Shown here one piece after another: positions 1,337-58,287 of a stretch of DNA of 64,000 nucleotides. The DNA is from an uncultured Porphyromonadaceae bacterium. Lineage in GTDB: Bacteria; Bacteroidota; Bacteroidia; Bacteroidales; Muribaculaceae. The stretch spans positions 1 to 64,000 of the forward strand of contig CAMWVE010000011.1 of NCBI GenBank assembly GCA_947177685.1. Reading direction: 5' to 3'. Below the pieces are notes generated by a model. The model did not search any database, was not told where the DNA came from, and worked only from the letters and a program-made list of their open reading frames with translations. Within the stretch, counting starts at the first letter, position 1. Each line of letters starts with the position of its first letter. The translations under genes were made by a program, and so were the position numbers.

Positions 1337-2314
1337 TTAACGATTTGATGTGGCAGCTACATTGTTGACAGGAGTTCCGGCAAGAAAGCTTCGGAAATTC
1401 TCCACTGCTATGTCAAGCAAACGGCGTCGAGCCTCCACTGTAGCCCAGCCGATGTGTGGTGTAAACCAGCAGTTGCGGGCTGTCAGCAGCGGATTATCCT
1501 CGCCGGGAGGCTCGGCGGTAAGCACGTCCAATCCGGCAGCATGGATTATGCCATTATTAAGTGCATCGGCGAGCGCACGGTCATCGACGAGTGGTCCGCG
1601 TCCGGTGTTGATAAGGATGGCTGTGGACTTCATCTGACTCAGAGTGTCTGCATTTATCAAGTGGCGTGTCTGAGGCGTCAGGGGACAGTGCAGGCTGACC
1701 ACATCGCTGCGCCTGAACAGCTCCTGCATGGTCACTTTCTCGACATATTCAGGCAGCAGCGAGGCAGGTTTGGAGGTAGGGGTGACAACCTTCATGCCGA
1801 AAGCGGCTGCGATACGCGCCACGGCTCTGCCGATATTTCCGAATCCAACGATGCCGATGGTCTTTCCAGCCAGTTCCATGTGGGGAAATTTCATGAAACA
1901 GAAATCGGCACACCTGCACCACTCGCCGGCACGGATCTCATCGGTGTAGAGATCGATGCGCTGCACAATGTTCAGCAGATGTGCGAACACCATCTGGGCT
2001 ACGGAATCAGTGCTATATGCAGGAATATTTGTCACTACTATGCCCAACTCACGCGCCACGTCAAGGTCAATGATGTTGTAGCCGGTGGCAAGGATGCCTA
2101 CATATTTCAGATCAGGCATCTGCCGCAGCATGTCGCCCGTGAGAGGTACTTTGTTGGTTATCACCACTGCGGCATCGCCTACACGACCTATGACCTCATC
2201 AGGGGCTGTGCGGTCATAAACGGTGAGGTCGCCTAAGGCAGCCAGCGAGTCCCAGTTCATGTCGCCGGGATTGACACTGTATCCGTCAAGGACTACTATC
2301 TTCAGATTTTTCAT
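1337..2314 (-). CDS. D-2-hydroxyacid dehydrogenase (glycerate dehydrogenase-like)
   Basis: The 325-residue protein is a full-length NAD-dependent D-isomer-specific 2-hydroxyacid dehydrogenase, expected to interconvert a 2-keto acid and a D-2-hydroxy acid in the cytoplasm. The Rossmann motif GFGNIG lies near residue 157. The substrate-binding Arg sits in INTGRGPL, the catalytic Glu in AEPPGEDNP, and the catalytic His in FTPHIGWA near the C-terminus. Closest in pattern are the glycerate/hydroxypyruvate enzymes, but substrate cannot be fixed by motif. A TAACTTTG box lies upstream (2346-2353) and overlaps the divergent promoter of the DUF695 gene. Confidence 0.88.
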   Translation of the reverse strand: MKNLKIVVLDGYSVNPGDMNWDSLAALGDLTVYDRTAPDEVIGRVGDAAVVITNKVPLTGDMLRQMPDLKYVGILATGYNIIDLDVARELGIVVTNIPAYSTDSVAQMVFAHLLNIVQRIDLYTDEIRAGEWCRCADFCFMKFPHMELAGKTIGIVGFGNIGRAVARIAAAFGMKVVTPTSKPASLLPEYVEKVTMQELFRRSDVVSLHCPLTPQTRHLINADTLSQMKSTAILINTGRGPLVDDRALADALNNGIIHAAGLDVLTAEPPGEDNPLLTARNCWFTPHIGWATVEARRRLLDIAVENFRSFLAGTPVNNVAATSNR

Positions 2315-14817: not shown

Positions 14818-14954
14818 CCCTGCCGGGAATGAGCAGCCCGACTAATGGGGGCTATTCACTATCGACAGGGGTAAAAAAAGAATTGATTGTCTCTCGACAA
14901 CCAACCTTAGTTAACCTTAAATCTAATACCATGAAAAACACGCTGCAAAATTAA
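14818..14954 (+). other. Orphan structured leader followed by a 7-codon reading frame
   Basis: 14818-14870 folds into a long stem: CCCTGCCG (14818-14825) with CGACAGGG (14863-14870), one mismatch, then GAAT/ATTC and AGCCC (14835-14839)/GGGCT (14849-14853). It is followed by an AT-rich leader of the kind that precedes Bacteroidales outer-membrane protein genes and by an ATG at 14931. That frame stops after seven codons (MKNTLQN). The rest of 14692-15201 shows only the gtrA terminator and no gene. It may be the scar of a deleted gene. Confidence 0.4.
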
Positions 14955-24635: not shown

Positions 24636-24675
24636 GACCCCGTTCCCCAACCTTAACAAATTGGGGAACGGAGTC
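24636..24675. repeat. Solo hairpin of the MITE-like repeat family
   Basis: GACCCCGTTCCCCAA (24636-24650) and TTGGGGAACGGAGTC (24661-24675) pair over 15 bp with one mismatch around a 10-nt loop. The arms match the ends of the larger elements at 54761-55008 and 56774-57126, so this looks like the two ends of such an element joined together. Confidence 0.65.
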
Positions 24676-24682
24676 TAAAATC

Positions 24683-55022: not shown

Positions 55023-55691
55023 ATGACTGATGAACAGAAAGATATATTGATAGCGAAGATGATCGACAACCCCGCGTCGCTGACCGATGCGGAGCTGGAG
55101 ATGATCATGCGCGATGATGAGCTGAGGGAAATTCTCGAAGCATCGGCAGCTATCGGCAGTGCATCGGCAGTTCAGCCTGACTATGACATGACCGAAGAAT
55201 GGCGCCGCTTCCGTCCGCGCATCCGGCGTAAGCCGTCGCTCACACGCCGGTTGATGAGGGTAGCTGCCGTATTCTTGGGGATTGTCGTTGGTGCGAACAT
55301 CCTTGTCAAGCTAATTGACCACACCCTTGCGCCTGAACCTCAACACATCGTTGCCAAGGCGGAACAACCGATAGAGAAGGACGACAGCCCCGCCAATGAC
55401 CCGGAGCAACCGGAACAGTCAGAAATCGCTGAACCGGTAGCACCGCCAACAAAAGCCAACAAGCCGGGCACTACTCATATTGCCAAAGCCGAAGTTCCGG
55501 TTGACGAGGCAATGGAACTGGACATTGACGAGTATCTGCGCATACAGCAGGCGCAGGTCGACAATGAAATAGCCATGCTCAACAGCTCGGTTATCGCCAA
55601 CGAACTGGAACCACTCAGGCAAATGTATGAACTGATGGGTGAAGATGATGAAGTAATTGAAATAGTAATCAATAACATAACAGAACCATGA
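55023..55691 (+). CDS. Single-pass membrane protein, possible anti-sigma factor
   Basis: This 222-residue protein has an N-terminal cytosolic part (1-75) with a short acidic helix region, a basic stop-transfer (RPRIRRKPSLTRRLMR), one membrane helix (about 80-100, VAAVFLGIVVGANILVKLI) and a periplasmic Glu/Pro-rich tail. The layout resembles anti-sigma factors that follow ECF sigma genes, but there is no FecR or zinc anti-sigma motif. It overlaps the next gene by 4 nt. The role is inferred only from position and topology. Confidence 0.7.
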   Translation: MTDEQKDILIAKMIDNPASLTDAELEMIMRDDELREILEASAAIGSASAVQPDYDMTEEWRRFRPRIRRKPSLTRRLMRVAAVFLGIVVGANILVKLIDHTLAPEPQHIVAKAEQPIEKDDSPANDPEQPEQSEIAEPVAPPTKANKPGTTHIAKAEVPVDEAMELDIDEYLRIQQAQVDNEIAMLNSSVIANELEPLRQMYELMGEDDEVIEIVINNITEP

Positions 55692-56536
55692 ACAAGACCA
55701 TTCTCTGGCTTTCAAGCCTTTTAATCGCCGCCATGCCGTTTACGGCTGCGGCTCAGTCAAACATCCGGTCGGCTTTCGATGCCATAATCAAATGCCCCGA
55801 AGCGACCATAACTGACAGCCATTCGCTCGACAAAAATCCGCAGACAAATGTAAAGACTGGACAAAGCGACATTTACAATTTCGTATTGCCCGCTGACAAA
55901 ATGAAACTTGTAAAAAACGTGTTATCCGCATTTGAAAAGGACAGCGAAAAAGCTTACAGCATCAACAAGGGAAAATACAACCCGCGCGAATCAGAAATTG
56001 CTTTGGCAGTGGGCGACGGTTCCGGTTCCGGCGTTACAATCAATGATGAAGAGTCCACCTATGAGTACGCTCTGTTCTTAGCGCCGGCATCAGAAGATCC
56101 GTCAGGTGTGTACCGTTATGCCTACGCAATCTCTTACAATGAGAAAGGGGGTAAAATACGCGGAAAACTGATAGTAACATACGCCCTGACGCTCAGCCAA
56201 CGTCAGAAGATAGGGCGCGAGCGACAGTACAGCCTGTTGCGCGACCTGTCAAACAACACCATGGTCATTGACACCACCGATGCTTCACAGCAACAATCGT
56301 GGTTCGACACTCTGATGTCATATTTCCAGACCATGACACAGGCTAATTCGCAAACCCGCATAGCGCTTGCAACCAAAGCGCATAAACTCATTCTTAACGT
56401 ATCGAAATATCCCGATGTCACTGAGGCAGAAAAAAACACAGTTCGAGAAATACTGAAAAGCATGATTTCTGACAGCAAATACTCCGAATCTGTCTTGAAT
56501 GAACTTCTCAACCAGTGCCTCGTAAACCTCAAGTAA
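55688..56536 (+). CDS. Secreted protein of unknown function in the ECF sigma unit
   Basis: The 282-residue protein has a signal peptide (LWLSSLLIAAMPFTAAAQ) and a mature part with no lipobox or barrel signature. Recognisable segments are FVLPADKMKLVKNVLSAFEKDSEKAYSINKG, EYALFLAPASEDPSGVYRYAYAISY and a helical C-terminus. Similar exported proteins follow ECF sigma/membrane-protein pairs in Bacteroidales. I do not recognise a characterised family. Translation is probably coupled to the membrane protein (ATGA overlap); a strong terminator follows. Confidence 0.7.
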   Translation: MNKTILWLSSLLIAAMPFTAAAQSNIRSAFDAIIKCPEATITDSHSLDKNPQTNVKTGQSDIYNFVLPADKMKLVKNVLSAFEKDSEKAYSINKGKYNPRESEIALAVGDGSGSGVTINDEESTYEYALFLAPASEDPSGVYRYAYAISYNEKGGKIRGKLIVTYALTLSQRQKIGRERQYSLLRDLSNNTMVIDTTDASQQQSWFDTLMSYFQTMTQANSQTRIALATKAHKLILNVSKYPDVTEAEKNTVREILKSMISDSKYSESVLNELLNQCLVNLK

Positions 56537-56691
56537 ATCCTTATTTTCTTAACCAGCGTCACTGCCGGTTGACTCAGCCGACATGTGACCATTAACTGAT
56601 GGAAAACGATTAAACGCTTGACTTCATAGGTGCCATGTGCCTAAACCACACAGACTATAATAGAAGAAACAGCACACTACATAACCAAGCA

Positions 56692-56728
56692 GGAGCTTCC
56701 GGCAGTGATGTCGGGAGCTTCTATTTTT
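56692..56728 (+). terminator. Terminator of the ECF sigma unit
   Basis: GGAGCTTCCGGCA (56692-56704) pairs with TGTCGGGAGCTTC (56709-56721) over 13 positions using three G-U pairs, with a GTGA tetraloop and TATTTTT behind it. It is 155 nt after the stop of the secreted-protein gene. Confidence 0.75.
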
Positions 56729-56773: not shown

Positions 56774-57126
56774 AGACCCCGTTCCCCAATATTTGTTAAA
56801 GCTGGGGCGATGGTAACGTATCCCACGGACAACTTAGAGAACAAATGCTTGTGATGTTTTTTTGGGGGGAGGTGGCTCGTCAGACCAACCGCAGCATAAA
56901 CATTGCGCACGCCACTATAGCAATACCTCTTGCGGTGTGCAAGATAACTGAACTATAGTACATTAAATTGTGCGCCGACGGATAAATTATCTTACCATTG
57001 CATCTCTCCGGCACTTTTTGCCTTGTTCTTCAGTCACGTAGCGACTGCTACGCTCCTTCATCACAAAACAAAAATCACTCAGAGATATGCAGCCCCAACC
57101 TTAACAAATATTGGGGAACGGGGTCC
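56774..57126. mobile_element. MITE-like element, copy A, with 35-bp terminal inverted repeats
   Basis: The left end (56774-56808) and right end (57092-57126) are inverted repeats identical at 32 of 35 positions; the tips contain CCCCGTTCCCCAATA and its complement. The 353-bp body has no transposase, only a short minus-strand frame (MKERSSRYVTEEQGKK...). Together with copies at 54761-55008 and 24636-24675 it defines a dispersed family. The 845 nt between 56536 and 57382 also hold the terminator, a palindrome and the RNA listed separately. Confidence 0.7.
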
Positions 57127-57152
57127 TATTCACCGCAAATTTGCGGTGAATA
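57127..57152. promoter_or_regulatory. 26-bp perfect palindrome next to the MITE end
   Basis: The sequence TATTCACCGCAAA (57127-57139) is followed directly by its exact complement (57140-57152). It touches the right end of the element at 57126 and precedes a TTTG and a TACTTTTG box (57174-57181), so it could be an operator or part of the insertion site. Confidence 0.6.
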
Positions 57153-57252: not shown

Positions 57253-57284
57253 TTTGTTTATTAAAAAACAAATAAGTAATTTTG
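57253..57284 (+). promoter_or_regulatory. Promoter for the structured RNA and DUF3800 gene
   Basis: TTTG (57253-57256) and TAATTTTG (57277-57284) are 20 nt apart, a perfect consensus match. Transcription should begin about 57288, exactly at the first stem of the predicted RNA. Confidence 0.75.
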
Positions 57285-57286
57285 CA

Positions 57287-57358
57287 ATGCGTCTAGGACG
57301 AGTCGCCAAGCGTCTCGATAAAGGGTGAATTCACCCCGATACTAGTCGCTTTTTTTTT
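57287..57358 (+). ncRNA. Predicted three-way-junction RNA with U9 tail
   Basis: P1 pairs GCGTCTAG (57289-57296) with CTAGTCGC (57342-57349), one U-U mismatch. P2 is CGAG-U-CGC (57299-57306), loop CAA, GCG-U-CUCG (57310-57317). P3 is GGGTG (57323-57327), loop AATT, CACCC (57332-57336). Junction strands are GA, AUAAA and CGAUA. Nine T follow directly (57350-57358). It is a GC-rich island in AT-rich DNA and starts where the promoter predicts. It does not match hammerhead core sequences. It could be a stand-alone small RNA or a leader that controls the DUF3800 gene 24 nt downstream. Function unknown. Confidence 0.55.
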
Positions 57359-57381
57359 ATCCATACCAAAAAAAACAAAAA

Positions 57382-58287
57382 ATGTATTTTTGCTATATAG
57401 ATGAATCAGGGACACCGGATATTCCGGGAACATCCAGTCATTATGTATTATGTGGTCTTGCTATTCCAATTGATAGTTGGAAAAAATGTGATAACCAGAT
57501 TAGAAGAATAAAACATAAGTATGGACTGGACAATGCAGAAATTCATACCGGATGGATATTAAGAGCATATCTTGAACAAAATAAAATTCCTGATTTCGAA
57601 AATAAATCATATCAGGAACGTAGAGCACTTGTATATACGGAACGTTCTAAGGAAATATATCGACTTCAGAAGGCTGGAAACAATAAACTTTATAAACAGA
57701 CCAAGAAGAATTATCGTATGACGGAATCCTACGTTCATCTTACATACGCTGAACGAATGAGATTCATTGAAGAGATAGCTGATAAAATCGGCAGTTGGCA
57801 ATTCGCCAGAATATTTGCTGAGGGAATTGATAAAACCCATTTCAACCCAACGAAAAAAATCACAGTTGATGAAATGGCATTAGAGCAAGTAGTTTCAAGG
57901 TTTGAACAATATATGCGCAATACTGATTCAACCCCAATCAGCCTTTTTGGAGCTATTATCCACGACAACAATGAAACGGTTGCGAAACGTCATACACAGT
58001 TAATGCAAAAATTCCATAAAGATGGAACTCTATGGACAAAAATAAATCACATTATAGAAACACCTTTATTTGTGAATTCGGAGTTAACAAGCATGGTCCA
58101 ACTTGCTGATTTGTGCTCATTTGTTTTACGCAGATTCTTTGAATCAGGTGAAGTTAACTTGTTTAATAGAATAAAAAGAAGAATTGATAAATATCATGGA
58201 AAGATGGTGGGTATAAGACATTATTCCAACGATGCGTGTACCTGTGAAATTTGTGTTGAGCGACAGAGAAAAAAGCCAACATCATAA
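57382..58287 (+). CDS. DUF3800 domain protein
   Basis: The 301-residue protein begins MYFCYIDESGTPDIPG, the DUF3800 signature, which is predicted to be an RNase H-like fold with Asp/Glu metal ligands (YIDESG at 5-10). Further conserved segments are EIHTGWILR near 55-62, and a late SELTSMVQLADLCSFVLRRFFE (about 234-255) with the Asp of the third motif. The C-terminus has a CTCEIC cysteine pair. The gene is AT-rich compared with its flanks. It follows the structured RNA and a MITE. A nuclease role is inference from family fold prediction. Confidence 0.8.
   Translation: MYFCYIDESGTPDIPGTSSHYVLCGLAIPIDSWKKCDNQIRRIKHKYGLDNAEIHTGWILRAYLEQNKIPDFENKSYQERRALVYTERSKEIYRLQKAGNNKLYKQTKKNYRMTESYVHLTYAERMRFIEEIADKIGSWQFARIFAEGIDKTHFNPTKKITVDEMALEQVVSRFEQYMRNTDSTPISLFGAIIHDNNETVAKRHTQLMQKFHKDGTLWTKINHIIETPLFVNSELTSMVQLADLCSFVLRRFFESGEVNLFNRIKRRIDKYHGKMVGIRHYSNDACTCEICVERQRKKPTS

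Follow-up and report, generated by a model that had tools for sequence, protein, structure and literature searches.

In the AbiF/RCd22 system the RNA lies upstream of the gene, a single promoter serves both with a terminator between them, and neutralisation of the protein by the RNA in trans has been shown (PMC12373285); the homodimeric protein meets two RNA motifs (PMC12373285). Type III toxin-antitoxin systems (ToxIN, CptIN, TenpIN) likewise consist of a promoter, a structured RNA, a terminator and a nuclease gene, their classical antitoxins being tandem-repeat pseudoknot RNAs processed by the toxin, and phage PhiTE suppresses ToxN with an RNA mimic, pseudo-ToxI (PMC5449768). Regarding DUF3800, an RNase H fold has been reported before (PMC10910872), structured RNAs of unknown function beside DUF3800 genes have reportedly been described as the DUF3800-I to -XI RNA motifs (Weinberg et al., 2017), and Rfam RF02968 and RF02969 are named as DUF3800 RNA motifs (PMC11701678).

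Investigation of a 64,000-nucleotide stretch of an uncultured Porphyromonadaceae genome (contig CAMWVE010000011.1, here called the window) revealed a comparable arrangement on its plus strand. A Bacteroidetes-type promoter, with TTTG at 57253-57256 and, after 20 nt, TAATTTTG at 57277-57284, is separated by a 4-nt gap from a structured RNA of about 70 nt (57289-57358), a three-way junction with a U9 tail that is supported by its fold, a covariance model and compensatory changes. Stem P1 consists of the 5' arm GCGUCUAG (57289-57296, with GCGUCU at 57289-57294) and the 3' arm CUAGUCGC (57342-57349, with AGUCGC at 57344-57349); like the P2 hairpin, CGAGUCGC-CAA-GCGUCUCG (57299-57317), it was assigned from the sequence and its homologues. 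The P3 hairpin, GGGUG-AAUU-CACCC (57323-57336), is variable in sequence and keeps its pairing through two-sided changes in homologues. The U9 tract (57350-57358, T9 in the DNA) has a counterpart T run 3' of P1 in nearly all homologues, and 23 nt separate it from the ATG at 57382 of the DUF3800 gene (57382-58287, 301 amino acids, PF12686). The promoter, the three stems, the T tract and the gene start had all been placed by a first-pass annotation made from the sequence alone, and all of these coordinates held when checked on the sequence. P1 and the U9 tract are likely to form a leaky intrinsic terminator between RNA and gene, an inference that rests on sequence only.

This locus resembles AbiF/RCd22 (RF03085) in its promoter-RNA-terminator-gene layout and in having two RNA motifs per molecule, but the protein there is an Abi_2 protein unrelated to the predicted RNase HII-like DUF3800 protein, and in the DUF3800-linked RNA both motifs lie within one three-way junction. 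Membership of the AbiF RNA family was rejected, as there was no match to the abiF motif RF03085 and Pfam gave DUF3800 only and no Abi_2. Regarding type III toxin-antitoxin systems, the order of promoter, structured RNA, terminator and putative nuclease gene is shared, and the requirement of one promoter for an RNA and a gene split by a terminator is met in the window and nearly all homologues, with transcription inferred; a phage RNA mimic is also known there (pseudo-ToxI, PMC5449768). The requirement of a ToxN/AbiQ-family protein is not met, the fold being ToxN-like in those systems and predicted to be RNase HII-like here, and neither is that of a tandem-repeat antitoxin, since the duplex motif occurs twice in a single junction and not as tandem repeats. 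As with the DUF3800-I to -XI motifs, a structured RNA stands beside a DUF3800 gene, but no Rfam 15 family matched it in the searches made; it could still be one of the published motifs for which Rfam has no model. RNA motifs linked to DUF3800 are as such on record, and what appears new is this RNA class, its two-site design and its solo copies in phages; the two-site design, the phylum breadth and the phage forms were absent from the limited DUF3800-mentioning literature searched.

The RNA upstream of DUF3800 is a real, conserved structured RNA. The window copy folds at -24.9 kcal/mol (z = -3.0; none of 200 shuffles equally stable) and scores 80.9 bits against a covariance model (R1) built from 65 RNAs, to whose seed it belongs. 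Nearly all close homologues share the pattern GCGTCTGG..GAGTCGC..GCGTCTC..stem..CCAGTCGC, in most cases with a T run behind it, though none follows P1 in the Leptospira copies. In the alignment of homologues the covariation score was 0.213 against 0.098 for shuffled alignments, 0.213 being reached by 0 of 500 shuffles, and two-sided changes were found at 13 pairs, including all six helix pairs of P3. When the pairing partner was slid by 1-3 columns, paired cells fell from 84% to 38-48%. Mapped on the protein tree, the true pairs show 46 compensatory double changes, and a slide of 1 or 2 columns leaves only 1-4. P1 pairs that do not otherwise vary are compensated in individual copies, as in L043 (G-C to A-U) and L026 (C-G to A-U). 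A lack of compensatory changes among homologous loci would have refuted the first-pass annotation; such changes were found, and on this count it is not refuted.

When 2 kb of the window were searched with Rfam 15, no family matched the strand of the RNA at E<=10, and at 15 loci, most of them homologous, nothing reached the gathering score at the RNA. Matches of the ctRNA/PISRT1 type in the window search were dismissed as chance, and no tRNA or tmRNA was found in the window. Identity with the FopS sRNA (RF04319) was also rejected, FopS matching only at window positions 14873-14941, unrelated to the DUF3800-linked RNA; that match, on the minus strand, is a FopS-family sRNA in its own right (77.9 bits), and the same genome has a second copy above the cut-off and a third below it.

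What the first-pass annotation had missed is a conserved U.U mismatch within an identical GCGUCU/AGUCGC duplex in both P1 and P2. The P2 duplex (AGUCGC at 57301-57306 with GCGUCU at 57310-57315) repeats that of P1 with the same mismatch, and 53 of 65 RNAs have the identical 12 nt in P1 and in P2. Where the U.U mismatch is altered it is usually replaced by another mismatch (U.C, C.U or A.A), and concerted changes in both stems were detected in L065 (U.U to A.A) and L149/L090 (A-U to G-C). The repeated duplex may represent two equivalent protein sites on the RNA, an inference for which there are no binding data.

Regarding transcription, a host-type promoter leads into the 5' end of the RNA in 62 of 71 loci, against about 2.5 expected: in the Bacteroidota TAnnTTTG precedes the RNA by 4-6 nt at 24 of 28 loci (0.3 expected from shuffles), and sigma-70 hexamers are present in 38 of the 43 loci of other phyla (2.2 expected). 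There is no room for a second promoter between RNA and gene. From the conserved promoter position it is inferred that the RNA starts at the predicted transcription start and that the gene is reached by read-through only; the terminator probably also sets the ratio of RNA to mRNA, again by inference.

Among 393 genomes from the order to which the window belongs, a protein search picked out four with a close full-length homologue, the window's own included, and the RNA lies directly upstream in all four (in L006 on the minus strand). The RNA was present in five of the 393, namely these four and one (L226, about 1400-1545, minus strand) that keeps the RNA although its DUF3800 gene is broken after 11 codons. 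Some DUF3800 gene occurs in 39 of 295 sampled genomes of the order, and the RNA-linked subfamily is therefore a minority. When the four-protein alignment was run against 84,980 species genomes, 73 loci were recovered; judged by record titles, their phyla comprise Bacteroidota, Chloroflexota, Nitrospirota, Spirochaetota, Pseudomonadota, Desulfobacterota, Acidobacteriota, Planctomycetota, Riflebacteria and Coprothermobacterota. A viral collection added seven more DUF3800 loci. The RNA was found directly upstream of every intact DUF3800 homologue of the subfamily (54/54, at ~47-76% identity, in about ten phyla), its end lying 13-112 nt (median 28) from the start codon, and each genome checked has one strong copy of the RNA. 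Loci that lack the shared sequence pattern of the RNA were distant (L084, L085, L086 and L088, with ~22% identity or a 29-residue match) or decayed (L079). In phage (INPHARED), plasmid and E. coli collections blastn, which has little power with a 69-nt query, gave no match; by tblastn a Leptospira plasmid proved to carry a gene of 54% identity, preceded by the RNA.

At about 12 loci the gene is broken and the RNA intact, some of the breaks possibly being errors in metagenome-assembled genomes, and at three (L067, L076 and L079) RNA and gene are both damaged or divergent; no intact gene without the RNA was seen among homologous loci. This asymmetry is not counted as evidence, because the ~13-fold difference in target size alone predicts about as much.

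A link of this RNA to other DUF3800 subfamilies was rejected: the covariance model gave three matches at 35 DUF3800 loci of mixed subfamilies, all of them in the RNA-linked subfamily, and no Rfam family was found at 20 loci of other subfamilies. Separately, a multi-branched RNA and a hairpin resembling a terminator (L215, 2600-2722) lie ahead of a DUF3800 gene of another subfamily on the 5-kb E. coli plasmid pETEC_5, the sole Rfam resemblance in that region being a sub-threshold Leu_leader match, and L085 and L088 have a GCCAC..GTGGC terminator-like hairpin just upstream of their distant DUF3800 genes, perhaps another DUF3800-linked RNA.

The gene product matches PF12686 (DUF3800) at 65 bits against a gathering cut-off of 21; PADLOC gave only a weak partial match for this gene and NCBIfam none. 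An AlphaFold2 model based on 55 homologues has a pLDDT of 92.6 and a pTM of 0.90, and in a Foldseek search of the PDB each of the 15 highest-ranking structures is an RNase HII or RNase H2 (best E 6.9e-4, probability 1.00), while the best match in BFVD is a phage DUF3800 protein. The RNase H-like fold proposed by the first-pass annotation is thus upheld by a high-confidence model whose nearest solved structures are RNase HII/H2; the RNase HII-like fold remains a model prediction and nuclease activity an inference. The protein shares with these enzymes a D-E-x-G ending strand 1, but TM-scores are only ~0.3-0.5, and it has a large helical insertion and an extra C-terminal His/Cys motif, H280/C286/C288/C291, which is invariant or nearly so. 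D7, E8, D195 and D243 are invariant in 55 sequences and, by residue order and secondary structure, would constitute an RNase HII-like tetrad, whose geometry in the model was not measured.

Regarding gene neighbourhoods, no third gene recurs at homologous loci, no family occurring more than twice among 71 immediate neighbours, and neither does any defence family; the neighbours do not mark defence islands, a point against the defence reading. As no neighbour recurs, the RNA and the DUF3800 gene are taken as a two-part module that travels alone. The G+C content of the gene (0.35, against 0.50 for the window) is consistent with horizontal arrival; comparison with a possible empty site in G799 left the insertion boundary undetermined, the flanks not being collinear. 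Upstream of the pair lie an element of ~350 bp (56775-57125) with 34-bp inverted ends (94% complementary), which resembles a MITE- or REP-type repeat, and directly 3' of it a perfect 26-nt palindrome, TATTCACCGCAAATTTGCGGTGAATA (57127-57152). The same genome has one near full-length copy of the element (91% identical) and dozens of copies of its ends, and an end pair also occurs at 24636-24678 of the window. A strong terminator-like hairpin (56691-56722) lies downstream of the open reading frame at 55688-56536.

Viral contigs were searched by pattern scans followed by a covariance-model check, and the RNA was found without any DUF3800 match in about five unrelated phage records (L105/L108, L140, L106, L145 and L146), most of which contain phage genes; the records are possibly incomplete. 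The RNA of L105/L108 (64.6 bits) has its own promoter and T run in a 95-kb record with a terminase match, that of L140 (52.2 bits) adjoins portal and methyltransferase genes, and that of L106 (27.5 bits), with P1 and P2 only and no P3, adjoins terminase and portal genes. L145 is a degenerate junction 3' of a tRNA gene (22.4 bits), and L146, in a 174-kb record with a weak terminase match, is a circularly permuted junction in which a loop closes P1 and the open end is that of the third stem; both rest on structure judged by eye more than on score. The permuted-form scan yielded L146 only, L227-L229 being chance matches, and the tandem-hairpin scan of viral contigs returned mostly coding repeats, from which only L146 and possibly L154, a doubtful case of two isolated hairpins, were kept. 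No remnant of a DUF3800 gene was seen beside the phage solo RNAs, and it is possible that they are relics of captured modules. Near the solo RNA of L108, a phage gene (424-2037, plus strand) appears by eye to encode a vWA/Ro60-type RNA-binding protein with a DKSGSMS motif, without a Pfam match.

The first-pass annotation had left three roles open for the RNA: a stand-alone sRNA, an attenuator or riboswitch, or an RNA partner of the protein. The partner role is favoured over a purely cis-acting attenuator because of the obligate pairing with one DUF3800 subfamily, the two identical duplex sites and the gene-less phage copies, an inference made without transcription or protein binding having been shown. 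The reading that we favour, by analogy and with no more than evenly balanced confidence, is that of a nuclease neutralised by its RNA, in a module organised like AbiF or a type III toxin-antitoxin system, with decoy RNAs in phages; two observations tip the balance, namely that AbiF/RCd22 has the same layout and that phages have retained the RNA but not the gene. One promoter would give rise to an abundant ~70-nt RNA, and the leaky terminator formed by P1 and the U tract would let a minority of transcripts continue into the gene, whose product would act as an RNase HII-like nuclease. The RNA would bind this protein via two equivalent duplex sites, P1 and P2, each probably occupied by one protomer of a dimer, and hold it inactive; a drop in RNA supply, for example on phage takeover of transcription, would free the nuclease and block infection, and the gene-less RNA of several phages may serve as a decoy under which the nuclease stays inhibited. 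The sequence itself shows a structured RNA, its link to a promoter and to the DUF3800 gene, the duplex that it holds twice, the family of the predicted fold and the existence of gene-less copies in phages, and transcription, binding, dimerisation, nuclease activity, toxicity, inhibition, defence and the decoy role are inferred. A bolder version, which we hold tentatively and think rather more apt to fail than to stand, is that of an undescribed antitoxin-like RNA class in about ten phyla that restrains an RNase HII-like defence nuclease via two identical duplexes, with unrelated phages having independently kept, trimmed (no P3) or permuted decoys.

The main rival, which remains possible, holds that the protein needs the RNA as an activator or scaffold within an effector ribonucleoprotein, and that the solo RNAs of phages are competitors that tie it up in non-functional complexes. 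Such a particle would fit the obligate pairing, the extreme conservation and the two binding-like sites equally well, and DUF3800 domains also accompany Cas12a2-type systems (PMC10910872). Against it, no unpaired variable segment is available as a guide, the variable P3 being a base-paired hairpin that is absent in L106, and phage copies retain the P1/P2 duplexes, as expected of an inhibitor, whereas an activator would be of little use to a phage. An RNA-guided system was rejected for want of a free guide segment in the RNA. Less well supported, and unlikely, is a purely cis-acting leader, in which the DUF3800 protein would bind its own leader and autoregulate by promoting termination, without a trans role for the RNA: RNA, terminator and gene do form one transcription unit, but this does not account for gene-less RNA with its own promoter and terminator (L105), for permuted or P3-less phage forms or for Leptospira copies without a U tract, and the two-site architecture is more than an attenuator needs. 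Finally, a selfish mobile unit, with the RNA as a transposition or recombination element spread horizontally and the phage copies as insertion relics, could draw on the patchy distribution over about ten phyla, the low G+C of the gene and the repeated 34-bp inverted-repeat element adjoining the pair in the window genome, but is very unlikely, as no family of transposases or integrases accounts for more than two of the 71 neighbours, genomes checked hold one strong copy and phage solo RNAs lack gene remnants.

Regarding DUF3800 proteins more widely, which like their neighbouring RNAs have long been on record with no function assigned, this subfamily offers a clean handle, with a conserved ~70-nt RNA, a predicted RNase HII-like partner and no third component. 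The repeated duplex predicts a two-site complex and the phage copies predict the direction of the effect, inhibition, which makes the DUF3800 question testable with small constructs. If the RNA-neutralised nuclease reading is true, the module would represent a new family of RNA-controlled nucleases, together with natural phage RNA inhibitors of it.
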